Source of the DNA: Acidimicrobiaceae bacterium
GTDB taxonomy: Bacteria; Actinomycetota; Acidimicrobiia; Acidimicrobiales; RAAP-2
Direction of reading: 5' to 3'
DNA: 64,000 nucleotides
NCBI GenBank assembly: GCA_003133685.1
Contig: PKYQ01000030.1
Location: forward strand, 1-64,000
The translations under genes were made by a program, and so were the position numbers. Positions 3,192 through 63,351 of this stretch are shown in pieces. The number at the start of each line of letters is the position of its first letter. Position 1 is the stretch's first letter. The notes below the pieces were generated by a model, which was not told the DNA's origin, searched no databases, and was given only the letters and a program-made list of their open reading frames with translations.

Positions 3192-3268
3192 GCCCCTGTA
3201 GCTCAACTGGATAGAGCAGACGGTTTCTACCCGTCAGGTTGCGGGTTCGACTCCTGCCGGGGGCACCA
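3192..3268 (+). tRNA. tRNA-Arg(TCT), CCA encoded
   Basis: The cloverleaf has acceptor GCCCCTG/CGGGGGC with one G-U pair, anticodon stem GACGG/CCGTC enclosing TTTCTAC (anticodon TCT), T-arm GCGGGTTCGACTCCTGC, discriminator A3265 and encoded CCA 3266-3268. It is divergent from tRNA-His, so both promoters must lie in 3117-3191. Confidence 0.95.
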
Positions 3269-3632: not shown

Positions 3633-5283
3633 TCAAACCCCTCGAGCGTGAGCGGGGATCGACTGCGCGAATGTGAATAGGTTTTCGGGATCGTATTTGC
3701 TCTTGATAGAGACCAACCTCGGAAGGTTCGAACCGTAGTAAGCATTCGGCCAGTTCGTGAGCGTCGGATCGATGTAGTTCTGGTAGGCGCCCGAGGTCGG
3801 ATCGAACACGTTGGCCCCGAGCCACGTCAGCCACTGCGCGCCCGCCGCTATTACCGACGGTGACGTGTAACTCGACCACGAGTACGTCGCTTGAATGCAG
3901 GCCAGTTTGTCGCGGTGGACGAAGGCCGTCGCGTCGCTCGCCACTCGATTGATCGCTCCGCCGTAGGAGTCGAAGGCGAGTCCGCCGCCGACCGTCGGGG
4001 CGTGCGCGTGGAGATTCTCGACCGCGTCGATGAGCGTCGCTACGGACGCGTCGTTCATGGGCGCGTTCACGTAGCTCGATTTGGCGGAGTAGGCCTCGCG
4101 ACCGAGTCGGCCGGCTGGATTCTGCGTCGTCAGATGACACGCGGCGATCGAGAGGCCCGAGCAGCCGGCTTCGATCTCCATGGCGCTCAGATAGCTGTTG
4201 GAACCGCTGAAGGAGTAAGTCGGCGCGGTGCCGATCATCGATTGCAGCGGTGCGAGCACGCTCGCGAGCTCACTCGGCGAGCCGCAGTACACGCCGGCAA
4301 TTTGGGGCAGGTACCCGTAGGTCCCTTGGGAGAGCAACTGACAGTTCGACCAGAGTTCATCCGGCGCGCCATTGATCCAAAGTCCCCACGCGCTCAACAT
4401 GGTGGACGCGGCCGCCCACGGGTACTGCAAGGTAAACAAGGTCATCTCGGGCATCGGGTGCACGTTGAACTCGAATGACGTCACGATCCCGAAGTTTCCG
4501 CCGCCGCCGCCTTGACTGGCCCATAGCAAATCACTGTTGGCGCTCGCGTCGGCGGTCACGATTTGGCCGTCCGCCGTGACGATGTTGAGCGATCGAATGC
4601 TGTCGGTCGTGAGACCGAACTTGCGGCCGAAGACGCCGATTCCGCCACCGAGCGCGAGTCCGGCGATGCCGACGCTCGGGCACGAGCCGCCGGGGAGCAA
4701 CCGGTTGGTGTTGCCGATCACGTTGTAGACGTCGATCAACCTGGCGCCCGCACCAACGCGCGCCGTGTTGGCCGCCGTGTCAACGCTGATACTCGCCATA
4801 CGACTGACGTCGATTACCAAGCCATCGCTGTTGGAGTAGCCGCCATAACTGTGACCACCCGAACGCCCGGCGATTGCAATATCGTGCGACGTCGCGAAGT
4901 CGATGCACCTCGCGACGTCATCCGACGTGGCGCAGTAGGCAATGGCGCGGGGATGGAGGTTGACGAACTTCGAGTTGTAGAGCTGACGGTCGATGGCGTA
5001 GCGGGGATTGGATGCCAGGACCAGGGAACCGGCGAGCGACGCACCAAGTTGCGACCACGACGCTGCAGTCGCGGGGCCCGACGTCGTGGTGGTTGTCGGG
5101 GTCGTCGACGAGGTCGTCGTTGTCGTCGGCGAATGTCGGTCCTCGAGGTAGACCGCCCCCCGCGATTGCCGCTCCGGCAATCGCGCCCACGCCGAGGGTT
5201 CGTGTGAGGAACGAGCGTCGATTGTGAGGAGAGGAGTTCTTAAATGACTCGTGTCGAAAGGTCGCAGGGTTCGACTCGCTCAT
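3633..5283 (-). CDS. Tat-exported FAD-dependent oxidoreductase (BBE family), frameshifted
   Basis: The catalytic part is one open frame (3633-5180) with an FAD-binding-4 (PCMH) domain and C-terminal BBE segment. GRSGGHSYGG carries His110 and GGSCPSVG carries Cys167 (numbered from the ATG at 5180), the pair used for bicovalent 8-alpha-histidyl/6-S-cysteinyl FAD in glucooligosaccharide-oxidase-like enzymes. Upstream, in another frame, ATG 5283 starts a Tat signal: NRRSFLTRTLGVGAIAGAAI. The two frames meet at a run of six G (5156-5161 on the plus strand as C). A one-base change there would join signal, a Thr-rich linker and enzyme. A promoter-like CACAAT sits 6 nt before ATG 5283, supporting that start. 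As written the exported enzyme is interrupted; sequencing error, mutation or slippage are all possible. The substrate is unknown, likely a sugar or polyol. Confidence 0.8.
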
Positions 5284-5289
5284 GGTTCA

Positions 5290-5295
5290 ATTGTG
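5290..5295 (-). promoter_or_regulatory. -10-like hexamer CACAAT, leaderless start
   Basis: On the minus strand CACAAT ends exactly 6 nt before ATG 5283 and no SD lies between them. This places transcription start at or next to the start codon of the oxidoreductase gene. Confidence 0.45.
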
Positions 5296-5526
5296 ACACC
5301 GGGGTTTTCGTGAGTAAGACAGCGTCGAGCGACCTCCGCGTCGAGCGCACTCAACCCGTCCCAAAGCTCGCCGGCTGGATCCCACCAAATGAAGTTGTTC
5401 AACTCGTCGTTGACGACCAAGTTCGGGGCACTGCGAAGGTCGACGGCAAACACAGCCCGCGCGACCAGCGAAACCCGTTCGGCCCGAAGGCGGCCAAGAC
5501 CGTACCTTTGGTCTATGCCATTTCGT

Positions 5527-6519: not shown

Positions 6520-6525
6520 TAGGAT
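6520..6525 (+). promoter_or_regulatory. -10-like TAGGAT before tig
   Basis: TAGGAT ends 10 nt before ATG 6536 with no SD in between, so the tig message is probably leaderless or nearly so. No convincing -35 at 16-18 nt is visible. Confidence 0.45.
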
Positions 6526-6535
6526 GGTCTCTCCT

Positions 6536-7930
6536 ATGCGCGCCACGACAACCCTTTTAGAGAACAACCGAATCATGCTGACCGTCGAAATCGACGACGC
6601 CGAGATGGACGAAGCGATGGACTCGGCCGCGAAGACCCTGTCCAAGCAGGTGTCGGTGAAGGGATTTCGCAAGGGAAAGGTCCCCAAGAACGTCCTGATC
6701 GCCAACATCGGCGGGACTTCAGTCCTGCGCTCCGAAGCGATTCGCGAGTCCCTGCCAGACTTTTACGCTCGCGCGGTCGCCGATTCGCTCATCGACCCGA
6801 TCGGTCAACCCGATATCAATATCACCGCCGGCGAAGAAGATGGTCAGCTCACCTTCGAGGCCGAGGTCGAAGTGCGACCGGAGATCTCAATCAAGGGCCA
6901 ACGCGAACTGCGCGTCACGATTCCTTCACCCGTCGTGACCGATGGTGAAGTCGACGCCCAGATCAATCGTTACCTCGAGACCGACGCCGTGCTCAACCCG
7001 GTCGACCGGCCGATAGTGACCGGTGACCTGGTGACGATGGACGTGCACGTTCAACAGATCGCCACGGACGCCGAACCGCTCGATATGACTGACTTCATGT
7101 ACACCGTCGGCACCGGTTCGATCGCTGAGGGTATCGACGAACTGATCCTCGGGCTCAAGGCCGGCGAAGATCTCAAGATGAACGCGCCGGTCGGCGAGGG
7201 CGTTATCGCGACCTATGAATTGAAGCTGAAGCAAGTTCAAGAGAGGGTGCTACCCCCGTTGAGCGACGAGTGGGTCACCGAGAACTCCGAGTGGACGAGC
7301 GCCGAAGAGATGCGCGAAGCGATCCTCGTGCAGATGCGTCGGCGCAAGATCGTCGAAGCGCAAATGTCACAGCGTGACGCAGCGCTGATCGCGTTGAGCG
7401 AACTCGTCGCCGAAGACGCCGCTCCCGAGGTGTTGATCAACGCGGAGACCAACGAACGTCTGCACGACCTGGGCGAGCGACTCGGGGCGCAGAAACTCAC
7501 ATTGGAGATGTTCTTACAGGTGACGAATCAGACACCCGAGGACCTGCTCGCGACGTTGCGCCAGGACGCCGTGCGCGCGGTGCGCGTCGACCTTGCCATG
7601 CGCGCGTTGGTCGCGGCCGAACACCTCGAAGCGTCGCCGGAGGAGATCGACGAAGAACTCGAGCGCACCGCGCAGTCCATGGGCGTATCGGCGGACTTGC
7701 TGCGCGACAACCTTCGCGACTCCGGGCGCGTCGTCAGCTTCACCGCCGAGGTCTCCAAGATGAAGGCGTCGAAGTGGTTGAGCGAGAACGTGGTCTACGT
7801 GGACCCCGAGGGAGTCGAGATCGATAACGCGATGCTGCGCGCCGACCAGTCCGTTGACGACGGCGAGACCGAATCCGAATCGACCGAAACCGACGACGAC
7901 ACCGCCGAGGTAATCGACGCCGACGCCTAA
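6536..7930 (+). CDS. tig: Trigger factor, ribosome-bound chaperone and peptidyl-prolyl isomerase
   Basis: Trigger factor binds ribosomal protein L23 at the tunnel exit and shields nascent chains. Starting at ATG 6536 the ribosome-binding signature GFRKGKVP falls at residues 43-50, its canonical position, which favours this start over the in-frame upstream ATG 6524. An FKBP-like PPIase domain follows at about 150-235 (VTMDVHV through AGEDLKMNAP), then the helical C-terminal arms. The last 35 residues are an acidic Glu/Asp/Ser/Thr tail, so the protein (464 aa) is slightly long. It lies upstream of clpP-clpX, the usual order, linking folding and proteolysis. Confidence 0.95.
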   Translation: MRATTTLLENNRIMLTVEIDDAEMDEAMDSAAKTLSKQVSVKGFRKGKVPKNVLIANIGGTSVLRSEAIRESLPDFYARAVADSLIDPIGQPDINITAGEEDGQLTFEAEVEVRPEISIKGQRELRVTIPSPVVTDGEVDAQINRYLETDAVLNPVDRPIVTGDLVTMDVHVQQIATDAEPLDMTDFMYTVGTGSIAEGIDELILGLKAGEDLKMNAPVGEGVIATYELKLKQVQERVLPPLSDEWVTENSEWTSAEEMREAILVQMRRRKIVEAQMSQRDAALIALSELVAEDAAPEVLINAETNERLHDLGERLGAQKLTLEMFLQVTNQTPEDLLATLRQDAVRAVRVDLAMRALVAAEHLEASPEEIDEELERTAQSMGVSADLLRDNLRDSGRVVSFTAEVSKMKASKWLSENVVYVDPEGVEIDNAMLRADQSVDDGETESESTETDDDTAEVIDADA

Positions 7931-7939
7931 GGTAGTCGG

Positions 7940-8548
7940 GTGAACGATTACTTCAAAGCCCAGAACTACCTCGTCCCCACGGTCGTCGAATCGTCGAACC
8001 GGGGCGAGCGCGCCTACGACCTCTACAGTCGACTACTGCGCGAACGCATCATCTTCCTCGGCACGCCCATCGACGACACGATCGCCAACTTGATCAGCGC
8101 GCAGATGCTGTTTCTTGAGTCCGAGGATCCCGACAAGGACATCAGCCTCTACATCAACTCACCGGGCGGCGACATCACGGGTCTGCTCGCGGTCTACGAC
8201 ACCATGAAGTACATCAAGCCGGCCGTCTCGACGTTCTGCTTTGGTCAGGCCGCCTCGGCCGCCGCCGTGTTGCTCGGCGCCGGAGCCAAGGGTAAGCGTT
8301 TCGCGTTGCCGCACGCGCGGGTGTTGCTGCACCAACCGTGGGGCGGCGTCGGAGGGCAGGCGTCGGACATTGAGATCCAGGCCCGCGAGATCTTGCGCAT
8401 GAAGGACATGTTGAACGACATGCTCGCCCAAGACACCGGCCAGTCGGTCGAACGCATTACCAAAGACACTGACCGCGACTTCATCATGAGCGCCGCCGAA
8501 GCCGTGGAATATGGACTGATTGACGAAGTACTAACGGCGCGACCGTAG
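7940..8548 (+). CDS. clpP: ATP-dependent Clp protease proteolytic subunit
   Basis: This 202-residue serine protease forms the double-heptamer chamber fed by ClpX or ClpC. The catalytic triad is visible: Ser106 in [10 protein letters not shown], His131 in [11 protein letters not shown] and Asp180 in KDTDRDF, with the same spacing as E. coli ClpP. The GTG start at 7940 lies 10 bp after tig, so the two are probably co-transcribed. Only one clpP copy is seen here, whereas many actinobacteria carry a tandem clpP1-clpP2 pair; a second copy may lie elsewhere. Confidence 0.96.
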
Positions 8549-11209: not shown

Positions 11210-11215
11210 TAGATT
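11210..11215 (+). promoter_or_regulatory. -10-like TAGATT before ndk
   Basis: TAGATT ends 8 nt before GTG 11224, with no SD between, suggesting a leaderless ndk transcript. TTGACC lies 10 nt upstream of it, too close for a normal -35. Confidence 0.4.
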
Positions 11216-11223
11216 GCTTCGTC

Positions 11224-11634
11224 GTGGATAGAACGCTCTTCATAGTGAAGCCTGACGGTGTCGCGCGCGGCCTCATCGGCGAAATCATCGGGCGCCTCGA
11301 AGACAAAGAGTTGCGCATCGTCGCGGCCGAGTTGCGAACCATTGACCAACCGACGGCCGAGCGCCACTACGGTGAACACCAAGGTCGGCCCTACTACGAC
11401 AAGCTCGTCGAATTCATCACGCAGGGTCCCGCGCTGGTGCTCATCGTTGAGGGCCCAGAGGACACGTGGCAGGTCGTGCGAGGTCTCATGGGAGCAACGA
11501 ATTCGAAGGACGCCGCACCAGGAACGATTCGCGGTGACCTCGCGATTGGACTGCGAGAGAATCTCGTGCACGGTTCCGACTCGGCGGCGTCAGCACAACG
11601 TGAGATTGAAATTTTCTTTCCTTATCCGGGCTAA
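11224..11634 (+). CDS. ndk: Nucleoside diphosphate kinase
   Basis: This 136-residue enzyme moves the gamma-phosphate from ATP to NDPs through a phosphohistidine. The active-site His116 lies in ENLVHGSDS, and the start MDRTLFIVKPDGVARGLIG is the family N-terminus, supporting GTG 11224. The C-terminus EIEIFFPYPG is a normal end. It follows folC by 21 bp but appears to have its own promoter. It balances nucleotide pools. Confidence 0.97.
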   Translation: MDRTLFIVKPDGVARGLIGEIIGRLEDKELRIVAAELRTIDQPTAERHYGEHQGRPYYDKLVEFITQGPALVLIVEGPEDTWQVVRGLMGATNSKDAAPGTIRGDLAIGLRENLVHGSDSAASAQREIEIFFPYPG

Positions 11635-18443: not shown

Positions 18444-18449
18444 TACTAT
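18444..18449 (+). promoter_or_regulatory. -10-like TACTAT before rplU
   Basis: TACTAT ends 9 nt before ATG 18459 and no SD is present, so rplU may start on a leaderless transcript of its own in addition to read-through from rne. Confidence 0.45.
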
Positions 18450-18458
18450 TGAATCCCT

Positions 18459-18770
18459 ATGTACGCCGTTATCCGTGTAGGCACATCTCAAGAGCGCGTC
18501 ACCGAGGGCCAAGTCGTCCGCGTTGACCTGCGCCCGGAAGAGAATGGTGCTGAAATCCAGTTCGAGCCCGTCCTTTTGGTCGACGGCGACTCCGTCGTCG
18601 CCGGGCCAGCCCTGAAGGGCGCGTCCGTGACCGGCACGATCCTCGGCGAGGAGAAGGGTCCGAAGATCCGGGCCCTCACCTACAAGGCGAAGTCGATCCA
18701 GCGCAAGCGCTGGGGTCACCGCCAGCACTACACGAGCGTCGAGATCACCAAGATCTCGCCAAAGGCCTAG
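18459..18770 (+). CDS. rplU: 50S ribosomal protein L21
   Basis: L21 is a 23S rRNA-binding protein of the large subunit. The 103-residue protein begins MYAVIRVGTSQERVTEGQVV and ends with the basic KAKSIQRKRWGHRQHYTSVE segment that carries the family signature. It sits immediately upstream of rpmA, the near-universal rplU-rpmA-obg order. The usual KxGGKQ near the N-terminus is here RVGTSQE, a small deviation. Confidence 0.97.
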   Translation: MYAVIRVGTSQERVTEGQVVRVDLRPEENGAEIQFEPVLLVDGDSVVAGPALKGASVTGTILGEEKGPKIRALTYKAKSIQRKRWGHRQHYTSVEITKISPKA

Positions 18771-19942: not shown

Positions 19943-22379
<2,437 letters not shown>

Positions 22380-22389
22380 TGTCACCCGT

Positions 22390-22395
22390 TACGAT
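22390..22395 (+). promoter_or_regulatory. -10-like TACGAT before proA, leaderless start
   Basis: TACGAT ends 6 nt before ATG 22402 with no SD, in the 22-bp gap after proB. Confidence 0.5.
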
Positions 22396-22401
22396 TGCTC
22401 C

Positions 22402-23637
22402 ATGTCAATAGGTGCGCTGAGGGCGCAGGGCCGCGCGGTCCGAGATGCCGCCACGGTCTTGGGTCAGGCCTCCAACGAGCAGCGTTGCGCCGTGCTCTTG
22501 CACGTGGCCGACCGGCTTCAAGAGACCAGCGAGGAGCTGCTGGCGATCAACGCGACGGACGTCGCGGCCTACCACGAGTCCGGCGCCGGCGTCGATCGGC
22601 TCACCTTGACGAGTGCACGAATTGACGCAATGGCCGACGCCCTGCGCGAGATCGCCGGGAACGCGGATCCACTCTCCGAACGTGTTGACCAGAGCGTGCG
22701 TCCGAATGGACTGCGCATCGAACGATTGCGCGTTCCTCTCGGCGTCATCGGCGTCGTCTACGAGAACCGACCGAACGTCACGAGCGACGTGGCGGGGCTC
22801 TGCGTGCGCAGTGGCAACGCGGCCTATCTGCGCGGGTCGTCCACGGCTTTCGCCACGAATCAGTTCATCGTGTCGCTCTGGCACGACGCCCTCGAGAAAG
22901 AGGGTCTGCCCGCGGCCGGCGTGTCGCTCGTGCAGGATTCGTCCCACGAGACGGCCACCGCGTTCATGCAGATGACCGACGTGTTGGACTGTCTGATCCC
23001 GCGCGGCGGGCCCAGTCTGATCGCGGCGATGCGCGAACACGCCCGCGTGCCCTACGTGCTTGACGGCGACGGCAACTGTCACGTCTTCGTCGACGAGACA
23101 GCGGACCTCGAAAATGCGGTGGCCATCGTACGAAACGCGAAGACCTCGCGCCCGGGCGTGTGTAACGCCGCTGAGACGGTGTTGGTTCACCAAGCAGTCG
23201 CCGCGGAGTTCTTATCGGCGCTGTCGTCGGCCATGCCCGAGGTGGAACTGCGCGCCGACGACGCGGCACGGCGGTACCTGAGCGACGCGACGCCGGCGAG
23301 CGAAGAGGACTACGAACGCGAGTTCCTCGACCTGATCCTCGCGGTCAAAGTCGTCGCCTCGTTGGACGAGGCGATTGCCCACGTCGCGCGCTACGGCACG
23401 GGCCACAGCGAGGCGATCCTCACCCAAGACCGCGCCAACGCCGAGGCGTGGGTGAAGCGTGTCGACGCCGCCGCCGTGCTGGTGAACGCCTCGACGAGAT
23501 TCGTCGACGGTGGGGAGTTGGGACTGGGCGCGGAGGTCGGAATTTCGACCCAGAAGTTGCACGCGCGCGGTCCGATGGGATTACGAGAACTGACCTGTCT
23601 CAAGTGGGTCGTACGAGGAGAAGGACAGATTCGATGA
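22402..23637 (+). CDS. proA: Gamma-glutamyl phosphate reductase
   Basis: ProA reduces gamma-glutamyl phosphate with NADPH to glutamate semialdehyde, the second proline step. The 411-residue ALDH-fold protein has VPLGVIGVVYENRPNVTSD, PRGGPSLI, the catalytic Cys in RPGVCNAAETVLVH and the C-terminal VNASTRFVDGGELGLGAEVG signature. ATG 22402 is chosen because earlier codons in frame are not homologous and a promoter-like hexamer sits just before it. Its TGA overlaps the next start (ATGA). Confidence 0.96.
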   Translation: MSIGALRAQGRAVRDAATVLGQASNEQRCAVLLHVADRLQETSEELLAINATDVAAYHESGAGVDRLTLTSARIDAMADALREIAGNADPLSERVDQSVRPNGLRIERLRVPLGVIGVVYENRPNVTSDVAGLCVRSGNAAYLRGSSTAFATNQFIVSLWHDALEKEGLPAAGVSLVQDSSHETATAFMQMTDVLDCLIPRGGPSLIAAMREHARVPYVLDGDGNCHVFVDETADLENAVAIVRNAKTSRPGVCNAAETVLVHQAVAAEFLSALSSAMPEVELRADDAARRYLSDATPASEEDYEREFLDLILAVKVVASLDEAIAHVARYGTGHSEAILTQDRANAEAWVKRVDAAAVLVNASTRFVDGGELGLGAEVGISTQKLHARGPMGLRELTCLKWVVRGEGQIR

Positions 23638-26690: not shown

Positions 26691-28039
26691 CGCTGTAAGA
26701 ACTCCGCGACGTGGAAGGCCATGTCGAGGCTTTGGGTCGCGTTGAGTCGTGGGTCACAGATCGAGGTGTAGTTCAGTTCGAGGTCACCTTCATTGAGGCG
26801 TGACCCGCCGCCGAGACACTCGGTGACGTTGTCACCCGTCAGCTCGACGTGCAGTCCACCGGGCCAGATGCCGAGGCTCGAGAGCGCTTCGAAGAACTTC
26901 GAGGTCTCGGAGAGCACGTCGTCGAAACGGCGCGTCTTTTGTCCACCGGAGGCGACGAAGGTGTTGCCGTGCATCGGGTCACAGGCCCACACGACCTCGC
27001 GGCCCTCGGCCCGTAGTGACTCGACGAGCGGCGGAAGTTTCTCCTCGACGAGTTTGTCGCCCATGCGCGAGATCAACGTCAGTCGTCCCGCGCGGTTCTC
27101 GGGATTGAGCACGTCGACGAGACGCAGTAGTTCGTCGGCGCCCATCGTTGGCCCGACCTTCAAGCCGAGCGGGTTCGAGACGCCGCGCAAGAACTCCACG
27201 TGTGCGCCGTCGATCTGGCGTGTTCGGTCACCGATCCAGAGCATGTGAGCCGAACAGTCGTACCAGTCACCCGTGAGTGAGTCGCGACGCGTGAGGGCCT
27301 GTTCGTAGGGGAGTATGAGGGCTTCGTGACTCGTGTAGAAGTCGACGCCCTGTAGTGCACCGTCGTCGTGAAGGTCGATGCCGCAGGCCTTCATGAACTG
27401 CAGAGCTCGTTCGATCTCGTCGGCGACGACTTCGTAGCGCTTGCCCTCGAGGGAGTTGGCGACGAACTCCTGATTCCACGCGTGCACGCGCGAGAGCGCC
27501 GCGAAGCCGCCCGTGGTGAAGGCGCGGAGCAGGTTGAGGGTCGCGACGCTCTGGTGGTAGGCCGCTAACAGGCGCTCGGGATCCGGTCGACGCGCCGATT
27601 CCTCAAAGGCCTCGCCGTTGACGATGTGGCCGCGAAAGGCCAGCAAACGCTGGCCGTCGCGCTCTTCGAACTCGTCGGTGCGGGGCTTGGCGAACTGTCC
27701 GGCGATGCGCCCGACCTTGATGACTGGTACGCCGGCGGCGTAGGTGAGCGCGACCGCCATCTGGAGAATCACTTTGAGCTTGTCGCGGATCGAGTCGGCC
27801 GAACCTTCGTCGAAGGACTCCGCGCAGTCCCCGGCCTGTAGAAGGAATGACTTGCCGTGCGCGACGAGTTCGAGGTGATCGAGGAGTCGGCGGGCCTCGC
27901 CCGCGAAGACCAACGGGGGCTTCCGCGCGAGGTCCGCTTCAACGCGTGCGAGATGCGCCTCGTCGGGCCACGCCACAGCCTGGGCGGCGGCGTGCGCTCG
28001 CCACGTGCTCGGACTCCAGTCGTGCGTGGACTTCGCCAT
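26657..28039 (-). CDS. aroG: 3-deoxy-7-phosphoheptulonate (DAHP) synthase, class II
   Basis: This is the first step of the shikimate pathway, joining PEP and erythrose 4-phosphate. The 460-residue length and motifs [46 protein letters not shown] and GLKVGPTM are those of plant/actinobacterial class II enzymes, not the E. coli class I type. Metal ligands include Cys in GDCAE and His in [15 protein letters not shown] hexamer sits exactly 6 nt before ATG 28039, so the message is probably leaderless. It is divergent from nadD and convergent with the histidine phosphatase. Confidence 0.96.
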
Positions 28040-28045
28040 CCATCA

Positions 28046-28051
28046 ATTGTA
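28046..28051 (-). promoter_or_regulatory. -10-like TACAAT before aroG, leaderless start
   Basis: On the minus strand TACAAT is followed by TGATGG and then ATG 28039, a 6-nt gap with no SD. Confidence 0.55.
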
Positions 28052-28083
28052 GAGGTTGTTGGAAGCGCCCTTCCATCGGTGTC

Positions 28084-28089
28084 TAGTGT
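28084..28089 (+). promoter_or_regulatory. -10-like TAGTGT before nadD, leaderless start
   Basis: TAGTGT ends 6 nt before GTG 28096. The divergent aroG hexamer is only 32 bp away, so the two promoters overlap in the 56-bp gap. Confidence 0.4.
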
Positions 28090-28095
28090 TGGCGC

Positions 28096-28665
28096 GTGAA
28101 CGTTCGGCGAATTGGTCTCTTCGGTGGGACCTTCGACCCGCCCCATTTCGGACACGTGGCCGCACTGCGCGCCGCCGCCGCGAGCGGACGTTACGACCTC
28201 ATCGAAGTCACCGTCGCGGGCGATCCGTACGTGAAGAGCCTCGACGGTGGCGTGCGCGACGCCGCGCTTCGCCTGGCGATGGCGAGAGCCGCCTTTGACG
28301 ACCTCGACCTCGTGGAAGTGTCGGACCGCGAGATTCTTCGCGACGGCCACTCATACACCATCGACACCGTACGTGAACTGCTCGCTGAATGCGACCAAGT
28401 CGATCTCATCGTCGGTGCCGATCTGGCCCAACAACTCAACGGCTGGCACAAAGCTGTTGAACTGCGTGCGTTGGCTCGCGTCGGCGTGGTGCCACGACCC
28501 GGCGCGACGACCATTGTGCCTGATGGTTGGGACAGTTACGAGATTCCCATGGACCCCGTCGATCTCTCGAGTTCCTACGTGCGAGGACTCGAACCCACGT
28601 CCACGAACCTTCGCCTTTTTCTTCCCGAGCGCGTAATTCCGCTCTACCAGAGCGCTCGAGGCTAA
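28096..28665 (+). CDS. nadD: Nicotinate-nucleotide adenylyltransferase
   Basis: NadD adenylylates nicotinate mononucleotide in NAD synthesis. The 189-residue protein starts MNVRRIGLFGGTFDPPHFGH, with the GGTFDPxHxGH nucleotidyltransferase motif, and has DLSSSYVRG at the place of the ISSTxIR motif. Length is typical. It precedes a small membrane protein gene and rsfS, the common nadD-rsfS pairing. Confidence 0.95.
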   Translation: MNVRRIGLFGGTFDPPHFGHVAALRAAAASGRYDLIEVTVAGDPYVKSLDGGVRDAALRLAMARAAFDDLDLVEVSDREILRDGHSYTIDTVRELLAECDQVDLIVGADLAQQLNGWHKAVELRALARVGVVPRPGATTIVPDGWDSYEIPMDPVDLSSSYVRGLEPTSTNLRLFLPERVIPLYQSARG

Positions 28666-31964: not shown

Positions 31965-31970
31965 CACTAT
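31965..31970 (+). promoter_or_regulatory. -10-like CACTAT before xerC
   Basis: CACTAT ends 9 nt before GTG 31980 with no SD between; a second AT-rich hexamer (TTATAT, 31973-31978) touches the start codon and is too near to serve. Confidence 0.3.
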
Positions 31971-31979
31971 CCTTATATC

Positions 31980-32888
31980 GTGTCACTTCAACGCAACGGT
32001 GCTCGGGCCACGGTGCAGTGGCACCTGCGGGACTACGCCGTGACGCTTCGCGCGACGGACCGGGCCGAGGCGACCCAGACGGCCTATCTCAGTGACCTCG
32101 ACGCCTTCATCGATTGGGCCGTCGAACGAGATCTCCATCGACCCACCGACATAACGATGCGAGTGTTGCGCGACTACTTGACGTTCATGACCGAGCGCGG
32201 TGATGAACGAACGTCGATCATCCGCCGACGCGCCTCGTTGCGGGGCTACTTCTCCTGGATGGTCCAGCGCGGGCACTTGGAAGAAAGTCCCGCCGCGCGT
32301 CTTTCGGCGCCGCGACCGAATCATCGACTCCCCAAGATCGTCGTGCGCGAACAGCTCGACACCTTGCTCGACGACGATTGGGGTGATGACGCGTGGGCGA
32401 CCTTGGACCGTGCCGTGTGCGAGGTCCTTTACGGCGCGGGGCTGCGCGTCAGTGAATTGTGCGGCCTGAACATCGCGTCCGTCGACTTTCGCCAGGGACT
32501 GCTGCGCGTGCTGGGCAAGGGTCGCAAAGAGCGCATCGTGCCGCTCCATCGTCGCGGTCTCGATGCGGTGCAGCTCTGGATCGCGGACGCTCGTGAGGAC
32601 GTGATGCGGGCCAACTCACCGCCCGAGGCGTTGTTCTTTAATCGCCGGAGCAATCGACTGGGTCCGCGCGACGTGCGCCGCATCCTGGACAACCGGATTA
32701 CGCGCGGTCACGTCTACCCGCACGCCCTCCGTCACACGTACGCGACCCATTTGCTCGAAGGCGGCGCGGACCTACGCGTGGTCCAAGAGTTGCTCGGTCA
32801 CGAGAGCCTTACGACCACGCAGATCTATACCCACGTCTCGAAGTCCCGGCTCCAGAAGGTCCACCACGACACGCACCCGAGGGGATAG
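31980..32888 (+). CDS. xerC: Tyrosine recombinase XerC/XerD
   Basis: Xer recombinases resolve chromosome dimers at dif before division. From GTG 31980 the 302-residue protein has the SAM-like core-binding N-domain and the catalytic set Arg156 (GAGLRVSEL), Lys180, His248 and Arg251 (HALRHTYATH), His274 (LLGHES) and Tyr283 (TQIYTHVS). Frames reaching back to 31857 add non-homologous residues over the mtrA start. Its place just before rpsB is the normal actinobacterial xerC locus; XerC versus XerD cannot be separated by eye. Confidence 0.92.
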   Translation: MSLQRNGARATVQWHLRDYAVTLRATDRAEATQTAYLSDLDAFIDWAVERDLHRPTDITMRVLRDYLTFMTERGDERTSIIRRRASLRGYFSWMVQRGHLEESPAARLSAPRPNHRLPKIVVREQLDTLLDDDWGDDAWATLDRAVCEVLYGAGLRVSELCGLNIASVDFRQGLLRVLGKGRKERIVPLHRRGLDAVQLWIADAREDVMRANSPPEALFFNRRSNRLGPRDVRRILDNRITRGHVYPHALRHTYATHLLEGGADLRVVQELLGHESLTTTQIYTHVSKSRLQKVHHDTHPRG

Positions 32889-47974: not shown

Positions 47975-48863
47975 CGGCTTGCTCCTCGTCGACAAGCCGC
48001 AAGGACTCACGAGCCACGACGTCGTGGCGCGAGTGCGTCGAATCCTCCACGAGAAGAAAGTGGGCCACGCGGGCACGCTCGATCCGATGGCGACCGGGCT
48101 CCTGGTGCTCGCCGTGGGACCGTCCACGCGTCTCTTGCGATTCGCTCAGTCCGAGACCAAGCGCTACAGCGGTGCCGTGAAGTTCGGCGTCGCGACCAAT
48201 TCACTCGACGCCGACGGTGTCGTCGTTGACAAGCAACCCGTTCCCGCCATGACGCGCGAACTCGTCGACGCCGCGACCTCCGCGATGCTCGGATCACAGC
48301 GACAGACGCCGCCGATGGTTTCGGCGATCAAGATCGACGGCCAACGCCTCCACCAACTCGCCCGTCGCGGCGTCGAGGTCGAACGAACTTCGCGCGAGAT
48401 CTCGGTCGCCACGTTCACCCTCACGCCGAGCGACGATGACACGGTGTGGCGTTTCGACGTCGTGTGTTCCGTGGGGACCTACGTGCGCGTGCTCTTGAGC
48501 GACTTGGCGGTCACACTCGGCACCGTGGGTCACCTCGTCGAACTCCGGAGACTCGCCAGCGGCTCGCACACCGTGGAAAACGCAGTGACCTTGGATGAAC
48601 TCGCCGACAGTGTCGTCGAGGGCAATGAGGTGCTCGCCCCTCCGGCGGCGTTCGTTACCGCTCTGGAACACGTGACGCTGAGCGACGAACAGACGCGCGC
48701 CATGCGAATGGGCCAGCGCGTCACGCTCGAGGAGAAGTATCAAGGCGATGAGATCGCCGCGATGGACTCCTTCGACGATCTCGTCGGCATCCTTCAGCGG
48801 CGCAACGAATCGTGGAAACCTGCGTTGGTGTTGGCGTCTCGCGATGATTCGGCGCGCGGGTAG
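47961..48863 (+). CDS. truB: tRNA pseudouridine(55) synthase
   Basis: TruB makes pseudouridine 55 in the T-loop. The 300-residue protein starts [20 protein letters not shown] and has the catalytic Asp41 in [13 protein letters not shown], plus [13 protein letters not shown] and [15 protein letters not shown] 47961 lies inside rbfA, and is favoured over in-frame codons from 47922 by homology. A C-terminal PUA-like part follows residue 220. Confidence 0.95.
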
Positions 48864-48872
48864 TTTGCTCAC

Positions 48873-49835
48873 ATGATTGTCGTACGTGACGCTGAGACGT
48901 CAAAGCTGTCGTCGCGCGAGTCGGTAATGGCCATCGGCGTCTTCGACGGCCTGCACTTGGGCCATCAAGCCGTCATCGACATGTTGTTACGCCTCGACGC
49001 CGATCGAGCCAAGGACGTGTTGTCGACCATCGTCACGTTCGATCCGCATCCCGCGCAGGTTCTCGCGCCCGAACGTGCGCCGCGACTACTCGGAACGCTC
49101 GAGCAACGACTCGAAGGGTTCGAAGCGCTGGGGATCGAACAGGTTCGTGTCGTCACGTTTGACCGACACCTCGCGAGTGAGTCGGCGTCGGATTTCATTG
49201 CGCGCGTGTTGGTCGGTGAGTTGCACGCGTGCGAGATCGTCGTGGGCGAGGACTTTCGTTTCGGCCACGACCGAGCCGGCGACGTCGCGCTGCTCAGTGC
49301 GCAGGGGCAGCGTTTCGGGTTTGAGGTCCTCGAGGCACCGTCCTTCGGCGAGCCGCGATGGAGTTCGAGCGCCGCGCGAGAGGCCCTCGAACGGGGCGAC
49401 GTTGACGCGGCGACCGCGACGCTCGGTCGTCCCTTCGTGCTTCGCGGGCGCGTGGAGCACGGTGACGCGCGAGGGGGAGGACTCGGCTTCGCGACCGCGA
49501 ACGTCGCGACCGAGCCCATGCAGTTAGTGCCGCTCGAAGGAATCTATGCCGGCGCGGCGAGAACGCTTGATCGTCAGTGGCGTCCCGCGGCGATATCGAT
49601 CGGCACGCGCCCTCAGTTCTACGAAAACGGCCCGCTCCTCGTCGAAGTCCACCTGCCCGGTTACGAAGCAGACCTCTACGACGCCTCGCTCGACGTGGCC
49701 TTTTTGTCACGCCTTAGGGGTGAAGAGGTCTTTTCGGACGTGGGCGCATTGGTGGCCCAGATCGGACGCGACGTGCAACAAACCGTGGAGATATTCAAGA
49801 AATTCTCAACGTTCACCTCGGCACTGCTAGAATAG
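48873..49835 (+). CDS. ribF: Bifunctional riboflavin kinase / FAD synthetase
   Basis: RibF turns riboflavin into FMN and FAD. The 320-residue protein has the FAD-synthetase nucleotidyltransferase domain (IGVFDGLHLGHQAVIDMLL, FDPHP, GEDFRFGHDRAGD) and the riboflavin-kinase domain from about 185 (GGLGFATANV, LPLEGIYAG-like region, FLSRLRGEEVF). It would supply the FAD used by the window's flavoenzymes. ATG 48873 lies 9 bp after truB. Confidence 0.95.
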   Translation: MIVVRDAETSKLSSRESVMAIGVFDGLHLGHQAVIDMLLRLDADRAKDVLSTIVTFDPHPAQVLAPERAPRLLGTLEQRLEGFEALGIEQVRVVTFDRHLASESASDFIARVLVGELHACEIVVGEDFRFGHDRAGDVALLSAQGQRFGFEVLEAPSFGEPRWSSSAAREALERGDVDAATATLGRPFVLRGRVEHGDARGGGLGFATANVATEPMQLVPLEGIYAGAARTLDRQWRPAAISIGTRPQFYENGPLLVEVHLPGYEADLYDASLDVAFLSRLRGEEVFSDVGALVAQIGRDVQQTVEIFKKFSTFTSALLE

Positions 49836-52853: not shown

Positions 52854-55553
52854 ATGAGTCTGATCGGCCCCACGCATTCCAAGAGGTGGTGGCGACCTCT
52901 CTCCCCGGGAGATCGGCGGGCGTTCATCGCGATGTTCGCGGTGCCGACACTGCTCTTCGTCATCCCGGCGCTGCTGGGTCATCCGGCGATCGACGGCGAC
53001 AACCTGATCCAAAATTTCCCGCTGCGCGTCCTCAGTGGCCAACAGATCGCCTCGGGCCACCTCCCGCTCTTCAACCCGTTGGCCGATTCCGGGACTCCGT
53101 TGCTCGGGGGACTGAATGCCGGGGCGCTCTATCCGTTGACGGTGATCTTCGCCTTCGTGCCGCCAATCGCCGCGTGGCTCATCAACTGCATCGCCGTCTA
53201 CGTGATCGCCGCGACCGGCATGTTCGCACTGCTGCGTTGGCACGGGATGCGCACGCTGTCGTCTTTCGCCGCCGCGATGAGTTTCGCCTACTCCGGCGCC
53301 ATGGTCGGACAGCTCGTCCACTTGGGCGTCGTCCAGGGCTTCGCCTTCATCCCCTGGGCCACGTTGATCCTGGTCTCGCTCTCTCGTCGGCTCTCCCTGG
53401 AGCCGACGACCACCACGTGGCGCCACTACGCGCGAGTGTCCAAACCCTGGATCTGGGGCTACGCGCTCGTATGGGGACTGACCTTTCTTACTGGGGAGCC
53501 CCGCGGCATCGCCGAGATCGAACTGTTGACGTTGATCATCGGTCCGTCGGTGTTGCTGATTTCCAGTTCGTACTGGATTCAAACGTGGCGGGGACGCGTC
53601 GCCTACGTCGTCGCCCTCGCGGCGGGCCTCGCGTGGGGGTGCGCCATTGGTCTGGTGCAGCTCCTGCCGGGTTGGTCGTTCATCGGCTTCTCGCAACGTT
53701 CGTCGATCAGTTACAGCTTCTTCGGCGCCGGTTCGTTGGTGGTGCGCTGGACGTCGCTACTCTTCGTGCCCGACATCTTTGGCGGGAACGGATCGGGTGG
53801 TCAGCCGAATTATTTCGCGCATTACAACCTGCCCGAGGTGACCGGCTACGTCGGACTGCTCGCGCTCATTGCGACGTTCGCGTTCATCTCTAAGTTGACG
53901 CGCCGCGGGTGGAAGGGCGAGGACCGTGACTACGTCCTGTACTTCGTGATCCTGGTCGTCGGACTCTTCGCGACGTGGGGCTCGTACACGCCACTCGGTC
54001 ACCTGTTTCGCGACATTCCCTTGTACGGCAGTACGCGCTTGCAGAGTCGCAACATCATCCTCGTGGACTTCGCGATGACCGCGCTACTCGGATGGTGGCT
54101 CCATCGCCTCGAGACGCGTCGTACGGCGTTGGCCGGACTCGAGGGTCGTGCGAAATGGTTCACGCTCGCGCCAGCCTTCGCGGTCATCGCGCTCTGCGTC
54201 GGACTGTTCCTCTGGGGCGCTCGAATCGTCTCGTACCTCGGGGTCTTTCCCCAACAAGAGGACCTCGCGCAGGACATGCACCTCTCGTACGGGCTCCACC
54301 TCGTGATCGCGGTCGTCACCGTGCTGGCGCTGTTGCGCTGGCGATCATCGAAGAACCTCATGAGAGTCGTCATGGGCGTCGTGGTGGCCGACGTCCTCGT
54401 GTTCCTGATCTTTAGCACCGCGGGACTTATTGGCGGTTCGGGGCTCACGGAACCAACGAGGGCGAACGCGTTGGCCCTCTTCGGCAACAACGGGCGAACC
54501 GCGCTCGTGGACCAGGGCGGCGCCCATCAACATCAGTTCCAAGCGCTCGGTGTGCCGAACATGAACGTCTTCACGAAGTTGCCCAGCGTCCAGGGATACG
54601 GGTCGCTCATCTCGACGATCTACGACGACTCAACGGGCACTCATCCGCAGGCGGCGCTCGATCCCTGTCGACTCGCTGACGGGACGTTCACGCAACTGCG
54701 ACTCTCGGCAATCGCGGTCTCGTACGCGCAGTTGAGTCACAACGTGATCGTGCCGATGCCACCGGCGCCGAACTGTCGCATGGCGCCGCCCTCAGCCACG
54801 ACGAAGCGCTACTTTGGTCAGTTGTTGCGCGTCGCGAAAGTGAATCTCCACGGACGCGGTGGCCGCATGGTGTCGTCGGGCACGGTGTACTTGAGCCTGA
54901 TCGATGCGAAGGGCCGTCCGTTCGGTTCGGTATTCCACGAGCCCGGCGCGAGCGATATGACCTTCAGCGTGAACGGGCGAACGTCCGAGGCGGCCGGATT
55001 CGAACTGACCGCAACAAAGGCCGTGTCGATTGGTGATGCCGAAGTCACACAGGTCAGTCCACTCAAGATCACTTACGATTTGAATTCGCCGATGCAAGAG
55101 GCGCTGGACAGCTCTTATTGGCAACTCAGCGATACCGTCGGAACGTTCTCGGTGTTCAAGGCTTTGACGGTGAAATCGAGCGTCTGGTTGACGTCGCCTT
55201 CGAGTGGCACCATTTCTCATCTGGATGACGCCGCCTATGGCGACACGTGGGTCACCGTGCACGCGACGTCACCGGTCACGCTGGTCCGTTCAATGGCGTA
55301 TCTCCCCGGATGGCGAGCGACGGCACTTAACACGACGTCGGGCAAGAGTGAAGCGCTCAAGGTATCGCGCAATGGTCTCATCCAGCAGGTGTCCGTGCCG
55401 ATCGGCGATTGGAACATCCACTTCCATTACCACGCGCCCTACATCGAGGTGAGTCTGGCCGCGTCGATCGTGGGCAGCGTATTGATCATCGGCGTGGGCG
55501 TGTACCTCGTCGTCGACGAACGCCGACGACGCGAGGATAAGGTGCGGTCGTGA
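52854..55553 (+). CDS. Large YfhO-like polytopic membrane protein
   Basis: The 899-residue protein has about 11-13 membrane spans in the first 530 residues and an extracytoplasmic C-terminal region closed by a last span (about 870-890). The early loop GDNLIQNFPLRVLSGQQIAS with HLPLFNPLADSGTPLLG is typical of YfhO/GT-C-like proteins, some of which move lipid-linked sugars onto teichoic acids. The Asp in the first loop is at the place of a catalytic acid. Function here is open. ATG 52854 is favoured over the upstream GTG 52830, which lies in the terminator. It overlaps dapB by 4 bp. Confidence 0.8.
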   Translation: MSLIGPTHSKRWWRPLSPGDRRAFIAMFAVPTLLFVIPALLGHPAIDGDNLIQNFPLRVLSGQQIASGHLPLFNPLADSGTPLLGGLNAGALYPLTVIFAFVPPIAAWLINCIAVYVIAATGMFALLRWHGMRTLSSFAAAMSFAYSGAMVGQLVHLGVVQGFAFIPWATLILVSLSRRLSLEPTTTTWRHYARVSKPWIWGYALVWGLTFLTGEPRGIAEIELLTLIIGPSVLLISSSYWIQTWRGRVAYVVALAAGLAWGCAIGLVQLLPGWSFIGFSQRSSISYSFFGAGSLVVRWTSLLFVPDIFGGNGSGGQPNYFAHYNLPEVTGYVGLLALIATFAFISKLTRRGWKGEDRDYVLYFVILVVGLFATWGSYTPLGHLFRDIPLYGSTRLQSRNIILVDFAMTALLGWWLHRLETRRTALAGLEGRAKWFTLAPAFAVIALCVGLFLWGARIVSYLGVFPQQEDLAQDMHLSYGLHLVIAVVTVLALLRWRSSKNLMRVVMGVVVADVLVFLIFSTAGLIGGSGLTEPTRANALALFGNNGRTALVDQGGAHQHQFQALGVPNMNVFTKLPSVQGYGSLISTIYDDSTGTHPQAALDPCRLADGTFTQLRLSAIAVSYAQLSHNVIVPMPPAPNCRMAPPSATTKRYFGQLLRVAKVNLHGRGGRMVSSGTVYLSLIDAKGRPFGSVFHEPGASDMTFSVNGRTSEAAGFELTATKAVSIGDAEVTQVSPLKITYDLNSPMQEALDSSYWQLSDTVGTFSVFKALTVKSSVWLTSPSSGTISHLDDAAYGDTWVTVHATSPVTLVRSMAYLPGWRATALNTTSGKSEALKVSRNGLIQQVSVPIGDWNIHFHYHAPYIEVSLAASIVGSVLIIGVGVYLVVDERRRREDKVRS

Positions 55554-56317: not shown

Positions 56318-56423
56318 GAGTTGTCAGTGCGGTCGAGACGTCAAGTTCGTGACGTTGCATTTCATTGCGACGCAAAGCCCCGTTGGACTGACGCCACGTC
56401 GCGGCCTCTTCGTCAATGACTGG

Positions 56424-56429
56424 TAACTT
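56424..56429 (+). promoter_or_regulatory. -10-like TAACTT before dapA, leaderless start
   Basis: TAACTT ends 6 nt before ATG 56436 with no SD. A small hairpin (ACGTCA/TGACGT, 56338-56355) lies further upstream in the dapB-dapA gap. Confidence 0.4.
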
Positions 56430-56435
56430 CGAAGT

Positions 56436-57332
56436 ATGACGACACCTCGTTTTGGTCGCGTTCTCACCGCCATGGTGACGCCATTTCGAGCGGACGGCGC
56501 AATCGATTTTGACGTCGCGATAGAACTCGCGACCTATTTGGTCGCCGAAGGGATCGACGGATTGGTCGTCGCCGGTTCGACCGGCGAAGGATCTTCACTG
56601 TCGGACAAGGAGAAACTCGAACTGTTCGCCTGTGTCGCGGGCGCCGTTGAAGTACCCGTCCTGGCCGGTTCGACCTTTGCCGACACCGCTCGTTCGGTGG
56701 AACTCACTCGTCAGGTCCTCGACACCGGTGTCACGGGCGTGCTGGCGACGACGCCGGCCTACGCGCGTCCGAGTCAAAAGGGCATCGCCGCCCACTTCGC
56801 CGCCATCGCCAATTCGACGGAACTCCCGATCATGCTCTACGACATCCCTTCGCGCACGGGCCGAAAGATCGCGTCGACGACGACGATTGATCTCGTCTCG
56901 TCGCATTCGAACATCGTTGCCATAAAAGATGCGTCGGGCGACTTCGTGAGTGCCGCCCACTACAAGTCCGTTCTCGGTGACGACATCGACCTCTACAGCG
57001 GCGACGACTCGGTGGTGCTGCCGTTCATGGGTGTCGGGGCGGTCGGCCTCGTGTCGGTCGCGGCGCATTGGGCCGCTCGCGAGTTCGTGCAGATGGTCGA
57101 GAGCGCCGAACGAGGTGACTGGGTCCGGGCGAGAGCGTTCAATGAACGACTGGCCACGAGTTACGTCTTCGAATCCAGCGATTTGTATCCGAACCCGATG
57201 CCCGCGAAGGCGGCGATGCGTTATCTCGGAATTGATGTCGGCCAGTGCCGACTGCCGCACTCTGAGGGTGACGACACTCTCGACGCGGACGCGGCCAAGA
57301 TCGTGGCCGCACTCCAGGCATCACGTGGCTAA
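56436..57332 (+). CDS. dapA: 4-hydroxy-tetrahydrodipicolinate synthase
   Basis: DapA condenses pyruvate with aspartate semialdehyde. The 298-residue TIM barrel has the Schiff-base Lys164 in IVAIKDASGD, Tyr135 in IMLYDIPSRTG, and the GSTGEGSSLS loop at 47-56. It overlaps rnj by 8 bp. The dapB-dapA-rnj order is seen in many actinobacteria (with thyX often between). Confidence 0.96.
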   Translation: MTTPRFGRVLTAMVTPFRADGAIDFDVAIELATYLVAEGIDGLVVAGSTGEGSSLSDKEKLELFACVAGAVEVPVLAGSTFADTARSVELTRQVLDTGVTGVLATTPAYARPSQKGIAAHFAAIANSTELPIMLYDIPSRTGRKIASTTTIDLVSSHSNIVAIKDASGDFVSAAHYKSVLGDDIDLYSGDDSVVLPFMGVGAVGLVSVAAHWAAREFVQMVESAERGDWVRARAFNERLATSYVFESSDLYPNPMPAKAAMRYLGIDVGQCRLPHSEGDDTLDADAAKIVAALQASRG

Positions 57333-58986: not shown

Positions 58987-59753
58987 TCGCCCTTTTCCGG
59001 TTCGCCGTGATCGGCGTTGTTGCGGCCGACGCGCCAAAATGCCTTCATAGTGATCGACGTATCGTCGAGCCCGCGATCGAGCAGCGCCACGCGCGCGGCT
59101 TTGATGACGTGGAACTCACCAAAGAGGTACGCGTGGCCGCGGTCCGGGGGAAACGCGAATGCCGAAAGTCCGCTGAGTAGACCGGCGGGATCGTCCCTGG
59201 CCCGACCCATACGGTCAACGAATATGCCGGTGACCGCGATGCCCTCGTCGAACGTCGTGGTCAACGCGTCGTCGGCGTGGTCGGTTTCGACGATGAAGAC
59301 CACTTTGCCGGGCGCTTCGACGCTCTGGGCCATGCGGTACGCCGAACCGAGACACGTGATGTCGCCCATGAAGAGGTGCCAATCGGCCCCGGAATCGACA
59401 ACGATCTTTCCCCGGGGACCCACGATGTCGACTTCATCGCCCGGTTGGGCACTGCGCGCCCACACGCTGCCCGGTCCCTCGTGGGCCGTCGTGATCCACA
59501 GAGTGAACTGATCGAGCTCCTCGTCGACGCTGTGCACGCTGTAACGACGGCGGACGAGTTTGCCGGCCGGATTCGTGAGTTGCACCATGACGTCGTTGCC
59601 CGGGACGCCGCACAAGAGGGCGGCCTGACCTGCGAGAACGACCTCGTGGATCGAAGAACTGAGCGGCGTTGAGGACACCAGGTGACCGACGCGCGCGTTG
59701 GCGTCCAGGCGTGCGGCGAGTTCGATCGAGGAGTCGTGGGGAGTTGTTGGCAC
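58983..59753 (-). CDS. Siderophore-interacting-type flavoprotein (SIP family)
   Basis: These FAD proteins reduce ferric siderophores with NAD(P)H. The 256-residue protein has the FAD-binding RRYSVHSVDEEL and PGDEVDIVGPRGKI segments and the SIP C-terminal fold with HLFMGDITCLGSAYRM and the closing MKAFWRVGRNNADHGEP. GTG 59753 is chosen because a TATGCT hexamer ends 6 nt before it; the frame continues upstream without homology. No siderophore synthesis or uptake genes are nearby. It is divergent from ftsK. Confidence 0.88.
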   Translation of the reverse strand: MPTTPHDSSIELAARLDANARVGHLVSSTPLSSSIHEVVLAGQAALLCGVPGNDVMVQLTNPAGKLVRRRYSVHSVDEELDQFTLWITTAHEGPGSVWARSAQPGDEVDIVGPRGKIVVDSGADWHLFMGDITCLGSAYRMAQSVEAPGKVVFIVETDHADDALTTTFDEGIAVTGIFVDRMGRARDDPAGLLSGLSAFAFPPDRGHAYLFGEFHVIKAARVALLDRGLDDTSITMKAFWRVGRNNADHGEPEKGD

Positions 59754-59759
59754 CGGTTC

Positions 59760-59765
59760 AGCATA
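59760..59765 (-). promoter_or_regulatory. -10-like TATGCT before the SIP gene, leaderless start
   Basis: On the minus strand TATGCT is followed by GAACCG and GTG 59753, a 6-nt gap without SD. Confidence 0.5.
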
Positions 59766-59807
59766 AGGCGATTGGCACCGACAACGAAAGAATCTTCGGT
59801 AAGTTTG

Positions 59808-62126: not shown

Positions 62127-63347
62127 GTGAGCAGAAGATCGACTCGTCGTCCGACCCTTCGCGGCCTCGTCACTCGATTCTTCTCGATCGTTCTGGGCGC
62201 GATCGTCGCCAGTGCGCTCATCGTCTCGATCCAGTTGCCGTTTTTGCACGAGCGCCCGTCGATACACCTTTCGCTGAGTTCCTACGGAAATTTCGACGAC
62301 GCGCCGGCGCCGTTGGTCTGGCCGAGCGAAGGTAGCGCGGCTCTCGACGTGCCGGCCCTCGGCATCGCACGCGCCCGGCACAACCAAGTTGTCCCGATTG
62401 CGAGCCTCACGAAGATGATGACCGTGTACGTGGTCCTCAAACGCTTCCCGTTGTCGATCGGTCAAACGGGTCCCTGCGTCGAGGTGACCAAAGACGACGT
62501 CCTCAGTTACGAAGCGGACAAGGCAGAAGACGACTCCGCGGTCATCGTCACGGCGGGCGAGCAACTCTGCGAAATCGACCTGTTGAACGGTGTGCTCGTC
62601 CACTCCGCGGCGAACTACGCCGACCTGCTCGCGGCCATGGTGTCGTCGACGCCTCAGGCTTTTGTGGCCCGGATGAATGACACCGCGAGGTCACTCGGAC
62701 TGCATAACACGCACTACGCCGACGACACGGGCGTTTCGGTCCATTCGGTCTCGACCGCGCTCGACCAAGCGAAGCTCGCGACCGTGCTGATGCGTTCACC
62801 CCTCGTGCGCGCGATCGTCGATCAGACCGAGGTCGACCTTCCGGTCGCGGGCTTCGTCAACACCTTCACCCCACTGGTCGGAGCGAACGACGTCGTGGGT
62901 GTCAAGTCCGGACGGACCGCAGTGGCTGGCGGCTGTGACGTGATGGCCGTCGCCTATCGCCTGAACGGGCGACGGCACCTCGTGTACGCGGTGGTGCTCG
63001 GTCAACAGGGCGGCAACGTACTCGTCAAGGCCGGTGACGCGGCGTACGCGTTGGCCATCTCGGCCGAGGCCAGCCAGGCCGACGTCGTGTTCGCCAAGGG
63101 AGCGGTTTTGGGAACGATTGGATTCGGCAAAGACGTCGCGCCATTCGGTCTGGCGCACGAGAGTCACGTGTACTGGTGGGATCAACACAACAACCATCCC
63201 TTGAAGTTGCGTCTCCGACACCTCGGTGACACGATTCATCGCGGTGAGGTCGTCGGATGGATTGAGGTACACAGCGTGGAAAAGCCCGTGCCATTGGTCG
63301 CGCTTCGATCCGTCGCCGCGCCCACGCTCTGGCACCGCATACTGTAA
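62127..63347 (+). CDS. D-alanyl-D-alanine carboxypeptidase (peptidase S11)
   Basis: Such enzymes trim the terminal D-Ala of peptidoglycan stems. The 406-residue protein has an N-terminal membrane anchor (about 15-38), the nucleophile Ser93 in PIASLTKMMT (S-x-x-K with Lys96), VHSAANYADLLA at 159-170 in the place of the SxN motif, and GVKSGRT for the KTG motif. The extra residue in SAAN and the Ser in KSG are departures from PBP5. GTG 62127 lies 3 bp after ftsK, so they are co-transcribed. Confidence 0.9.
   Translation: MSRRSTRRPTLRGLVTRFFSIVLGAIVASALIVSIQLPFLHERPSIHLSLSSYGNFDDAPAPLVWPSEGSAALDVPALGIARARHNQVVPIASLTKMMTVYVVLKRFPLSIGQTGPCVEVTKDDVLSYEADKAEDDSAVIVTAGEQLCEIDLLNGVLVHSAANYADLLAAMVSSTPQAFVARMNDTARSLGLHNTHYADDTGVSVHSVSTALDQAKLATVLMRSPLVRAIVDQTEVDLPVAGFVNTFTPLVGANDVVGVKSGRTAVAGGCDVMAVAYRLNGRRHLVYAVVLGQQGGNVLVKAGDAAYALAISAEASQADVVFAKGAVLGTIGFGKDVAPFGLAHESHVYWWDQHNNHPLKLRLRHLGDTIHRGEVVGWIEVHSVEKPVPLVALRSVAAPTLWHRIL
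63340..63345 (+). promoter_or_regulatory. -10-like TACTGT before thrB, leaderless start
   Basis: TACTGT ends 6 nt before ATG 63352, within the end of the carboxypeptidase gene, and no SD follows. Confidence 0.45.
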
Positions 63348-63351
63348 AACC

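Follow-up and report, generated by a model that had tools for sequence, protein, structure and literature searches.

In Actinobacteria, a TANNNT motif located about 12 bp upstream of the start codon has been described, which precedes a mean of 19.2% of the genes in 86 genomes (Zheng et al., 2011; PMC3160421). For mycobacterial leaderless genes, an ATG or GTG at position +1 was found to be necessary and sufficient (Shell et al., 2015; PMC4633059). Here, an extensive leaderless transcriptome has been mapped in M. tuberculosis (Cortes et al., 2013; PMC3898074), and 24% of the transcripts of M. smegmatis are leaderless, with an enrichment of amino-acid and cofactor biosynthesis (2019; PMC6448022). 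In these mycobacteria about 24–25% are leaderless, and this status is largely conserved between species (PMC3898074, PMC4633059, PMC6448022). Furthermore, in the work on StartLink the Actinobacteria are treated as a clade in which leaderless genes are numerous (PMC9581028).

The window analyzed here is a stretch of 64,000 nucleotides from an Acidimicrobiaceae bacterium (contig PKYQ01000030.1). A preliminary description had noticed, at eight genes, a −10-like hexamer separated from the start codon by exactly 6 nt, had read these genes as leaderless and had stated that leaderless mRNAs are common in actinobacteria, which agrees with what has been described since 2011. The genes resemble the TA-led genes of Zheng et al. 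(2011), since the motif is found at the same place and, as in other high-GC genomes, its middle positions are weak. As in the genomes treated with GeneMarkS-2 and StartLink (PMC9581028), promoter-led and Shine-Dalgarno (SD)-led starts are mixed in one high-GC actinobacterial genome. The functional enrichment seen in mycobacteria fits aroG, proA, dapA, thrB, nadD and ribF of the window. In contrast to the mycobacterial systems, which rest on mapped 5′ ends and ribosome profiling, the present one is known from its sequence alone. The accessible text of Zheng et al. (2011) does not name Acidimicrobium, and two features seen here were not found in it: that the pattern is conserved for individual genes throughout a genus, and that a stop codon is fused with the −10 box. 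Leaderless transcription is very probably the best explanation for TANNNT followed by a 6-nt gap, as judged from the sequence comparisons presented below.

Within the window, seven of the eight genes originally listed (obg, proA, aroG, nadD, dapA, SIP, and thrB) indeed carry an exact TANNNT at a gap of 6 nt. The exception is the gene that had given the description its title, an oxidase gene with CACAAT at this position. Gaps of 7–10 nt had also been listed and apply to tig (10), rplU (9) and, if its start is GTG 11224, ndk (8); xerC has to be removed from this group, since TATCCT stands at gap 6 before GTG 31980. In addition, clpP (7940), ribF (48873) and dapB (55550) at gap 6 as well as ftsK (59814) at gap 8 belong to the set and were absent from the earlier list (Table 1). 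That the pattern decides start codons was borne out at dapA and proA, where a motif-blind gene caller placed the starts 12 and 30 codons too far in and the relatives back the gap-6 starts.

Table 1. Hexamers, gaps to the start codon and start codons in the window, with the tRNA genes of the same stretch. Coordinates are positions of the window and, for protein genes, run over hexamer, gap and start codon.
Feature	Coordinates	Strand	Hexamer, gap, start codon and remarks
tRNA genes	1384–1457 and 3192–3268		
FAD/BBE oxidase box	5281–5295	−	CACAAT, 6 nt, ATG 5283; degenerate hexamer
tig	6520–6538	+	TAGGAT, gap 10, ATG 6536; near-leaderless or short leader
clpP	7928–7942	+	TAAGGT (shares its TAA with the stop of tig), gap 6, GTG 7940
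ndk	11210–11226	+	TAGATT, gap 8, GTG 11224
rplU	18444–18461	+	TACTAT, gap 9, ATG 18459
obg	19943–19957	+	TAGGAT, gap 6, GTG 19955
proA	22390–22404	+	TACGAT, gap 6, ATG 22402
aroG (class II DAHP synthase)	28037–28051	−	TACAAT, gap 6, ATG 28039; divergent from nadD
nadD	28084–28098	+	TAGTGT, gap 6, GTG 28096
xerC	31968–31982	+	TATCCT, gap 6, GTG 31980
ribF	48861–48875	+	TAGTTT (shares its TAG with the stop of truB), gap 6, ATG 48873
dapB	55538–55552	+	TAAGGT, gap 6, GTG 55550; within the last part of the preceding gene
dapA	56424–56438	+	TAACTT after CTGG, gap 6, ATG 56436
SIP (siderophore-interacting protein)	59751–59765	−	TATGCT, gap 6, GTG 59753; divergent from ftsK
ftsK	59800–59816	+	TAAGTT, gap 8, GTG 59814
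thrB	63340–63354	+	TACTGT, gap 6, ATG 63352

Two of the gene pairs are divergent and of the leaderless type on both sides, with boxes on both strands: aroG and nadD (28039–28096) are 56 nt apart, SIP and ftsK (59753–59814) 60 nt. The spacer between aroG and nadD contains the imperfect palindrome GGAAGCGCCCTTCC, which is not conserved in the relatives. At dapA, the box together with the preceding bases (56420–56429) reads CTGGTAACTT; its CTGG is nearly invariant in 28 relatives, and the TG at −15/−14 resembles an extended −10 element.

The stretch 3633–5283 of the minus strand encodes a FAD-binding/BBE oxidase with a Tat (twin-arginine) signal. In this assembly the gene carries a frameshift, so that the signal peptide is read in another frame than the catalytic domain; the change of frame falls at some point within repeat-rich sequence near 5100. 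Homologues within the genus have both parts in one frame. Upstream of these, TAACGT, TAGCGT or TATCGT is present at gap 6 in 10 of 13 cases and TAACAT at gap 8 in two more. Because 12 of the 13 homologues thus have TANNNT at gap 6 or 8, it is plausible that ATG 5283 is a leaderless start as well, preceded by a degenerate box.

A small set of hexamers selected by eye could simply reflect chance or an AT-richness near the starts of a GC-rich genome. Gene-anchored counts across the genome test this explanation. Here, 906 genes were called on 1.26 Mb, sampled in stretches from the same 2.5 Mb genome, by a caller with a 3-periodic coding model that is blind to upstream motifs; its start calls are computational and some of them are wrong. 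For gaps of 0 to 12 nt, TANNNT precedes 2, 5, 1, 2, 3, 1, 80, 38, 15, 9, 7, 2 and 2 of the 906 genes, respectively. The 80 genes at gap 6 compare with 8.6 ± 2.8 (maximum 16) in composition shuffles, and the control gaps hold a mean of 4.0 genes. The only count in favor of chance is the raw one over the genome, in which TANNNTN6ATG occurs 261 times and the reversed pattern 222 times, a slight excess only; such raw counts carry no information, since the motif is also frequent away from gene starts. Since the gene-anchored counts exceed shuffles and neighboring gaps about 10–20 fold, and about 30 relatives keep the hexamer at each gene compared, chance is already refuted and keeps practically no weight.

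The same peak is present in the relatives. A congener has 38 genes at gap 6 and 14 at gap 7 among 312, and a member of a second family of the order 13 and 4 among 163. In a genome of another family of this order (G030), gaps 6, 7 and 8 account for 4, 11 and 7 of 145 genes, so that gap 7 is the commonest. For G026, with a GC content of 73%, the gene caller was seeded with the model of G000. By contrast, E. coli K-12, analyzed with the same caller, shows no peak (1 and 0 of 107 genes at gaps 6 and 7). The genome-wide motif count proposed in the preliminary description thus yields a sharp peak at gaps 6–7 both here and in the three relatives, whereas E. coli lacks it.

Further, the peak depends on the start codon. 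In the first sample of 629 genes it was limited to in-frame ATG and GTG candidates; TTG starts and the two other frames gave no TANNNT peak in these 629 genes, and TTG makes up 0.2% of the leaderless class of a mixture model (see below). SD sites are largely excluded, since SD 5-mers precede 5% of the gap 6–7 genes versus 32% of the remaining genes. Searches of the own genome did not find a 16S rRNA.

A translation signal within an mRNA leader, i.e., a ribosome-binding element other than SD in place of a promoter, would also account for the in-frame dependence and for the sharply defined distance to the start codon. Such an element would, however, not be expected where the hexamer is found elsewhere in the genome. 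Of the 32 tRNA genes present in the sampled stretches, which are untranslated, 14 have it 6–12 nt upstream of their mature 5′ end, and at first genes led by an SD site it is located at gaps of about 20–55 nt and nearly absent at 0–19. Furthermore, the gap 6–7 motif is enriched at first or divergent genes: it is present at 62 of 293 genes with a divergent upstream neighbor versus 34 of 349 in tight same-strand runs. Also the exclusion of TTG starts is what leaderless initiation would lead one to expect. A ribosome-binding element is therefore very improbable. Because TANNNT precedes tRNA genes, sits at leader distance from SD-led genes and favors divergent genes, it is interpreted as a −10 element. 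The spacing at the tRNA genes suggests, in addition, transcripts with almost no 5′ leader left for RNase P to remove.

A −35 element shared by these genes had not been seen in the window, and this holds genome-wide as well: none was found across the genome, and none at obg or dapA. Solely at aroG is a GATTG conserved, from −38 to −34.

The spacing is conserved between orthologues, as seen for obg, proA, dapA, aroG, nadD and clpP. Gap 6 is found in 30 of 30 genus loci for obg, in all 27 proA loci that hold the upstream region and in all of about 31 aroG relatives with at least 65% identity. For dapA, 28 of 30 genus loci have gap 6 and two have gap 7; for nadD, all 30 carry the hexamer (26 at gap 6, four at gap 7). 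Hexamer and gap are also conserved for clpP and mostly for ribF, with varying bases in the spacer. On the level of alignment columns, the hexamer is 87–94% conserved, the following six bases 48–62% and the region from −45 to −28 40–54%. In more distant relatives of aroG the start is shifted by several codons, and the hexamer is shifted along with it and still lies 6 nt away. For thrB, the homologous proteins in 31 of 31 genus genomes align from residue 1–3. The closest AroG proteins, 95% identical, derive from metagenome-assembled genomes labeled Acidimicrobiaceae (sample names palsa and bog). Together with the in-frame peak at gaps 6–7 and the promoter-like behavior elsewhere in the genome, this spacing kept across the genus supports the leaderless reading of the preliminary description.

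Mechanistically, the hexamer would act as the −10 element of a housekeeping promoter, recognized by the presumed housekeeping sigma factor. At gap 6 its last base is at −7, and the transcript would begin with the first base of the start codon (A or G). The resulting mRNA would have neither a 5′ leader nor an SD site, and translation would occur by direct recognition of the 5′-terminal AUG or GUG, presumably as in mycobacteria.

At gaps 7–10, the transcript would begin no more than one to a few bases away from the start codon, and these genes could have leaders of 1–4 nt. A fixed geometry between −10 element and transcription start would place the latter upstream of the codon, and in one related family gap 7 is the commonest (11 of 145 genes); a short leader in place of a strictly leaderless mRNA is therefore conceivable for these genes, but we regard it as doubtful. 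The base at −1 speaks rather for another solution. Among the gap-7 genes it is a pyrimidine in 27 of 38 (71%) versus 48% (p = 0.005), as if initiation were shifted onto the purine with which the start codon begins. Mycobacterial leaderless promoters prefer a C at −1. This base occupies −1 in 21 of 38 gap-7 genes (p = 0.03), but gap 6 shows no excess of it (30 of 80).

How many genes are leaderless depends on the way of counting. The strict count gives 118 of 906 genes (about 13%) at gaps 6–7, with the background still included. A small mixture model, used in place of GeneMarkS-2 to define the leaderless class, assigns 28% of the genes to it; when the upstream sequence is shuffled, 16.5% are nevertheless placed in this class, their gaps being diffusely distributed. 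Because this control is not clean, 28% is to be taken as the upper and 13% as the lower figure, and the true share probably lies between both.

The least familiar part of the finding is the fusion of a stop codon with the −10 box. In the gap-6 geometry, the hexamer is in frame with the start codon, four codons upstream. In several tandem gene pairs, the TAA or TAG of the hexamer is at the same time the stop of the preceding gene, and the distance between the genes is exactly 9 nt. Within the window, this applies to tig-clpP (TAAGGT) and truB-ribF (TAGTTT). Across the genus, 27 of 29 tig-clpP loci have the tig stop codon as the first three bases of the hexamer, and the T at −7 is kept in 29 of 29; for truB-ribF, stop codon and hexamer overlap in this way in 18 of 30 loci, and five more have the hexamer without the overlap. 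Outside the genus, in other genera and families of the order, the tig-clpP fusion was seen in one of 29 loci, while in many others these two genes overlap or nearly abut.

The latter is the usual layout of translational coupling. Hence the conserved 9-nt distance from stop to start might serve termination-reinitiation between close tandem genes, with the match to TANNNT as a by-product, all the more as TAAGGT at tig-clpP contains AAGG, which could be a weak SD site. The final T of the hexamer, however, speaks against this. Among pairs with a TAR stop, in this genome and the congener, a T completes TARNNT in 9 of 16 at distance 9, but in 8 of 136 when all remaining distances up to 40 are taken together (p = 2e-6, Fisher test). 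This T is never lost at the clpP loci, and at truB-ribF the hexamer occurs without an SD site. We therefore consider reinitiation an unlikely origin of this arrangement. With moderate confidence, the comparisons favor a recurrent junction of the form TARNNT + 6 nt + RTG, in which the stop codon would double as half of the −10 element of a leaderless downstream gene. Here, one short sequence would end a protein, place a promoter and fix the next start codon; with such an internal promoter, the downstream gene could be read from the operon as well as alone. In the titles and abstracts of the literature searched, with subscription papers mostly outside the search, no description of such a stop-codon/−10 overlap was found.

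The phenomenon as a whole is real, well explained and largely known: a familiar habit of actinobacteria, seen here genome-wide and conserved gene by gene. With it, an uncultured acidimicrobial genus from peat joins the bacteria with frequent leaderless transcription, and the distance between −10 element and start codon is held for each gene while the intervening bases drift. For genomes of this genus, this provides a rule to correct start codons. If real, the fusion of stop codon and −10 box would furthermore represent a very compact way of placing a promoter between the genes of an operon.
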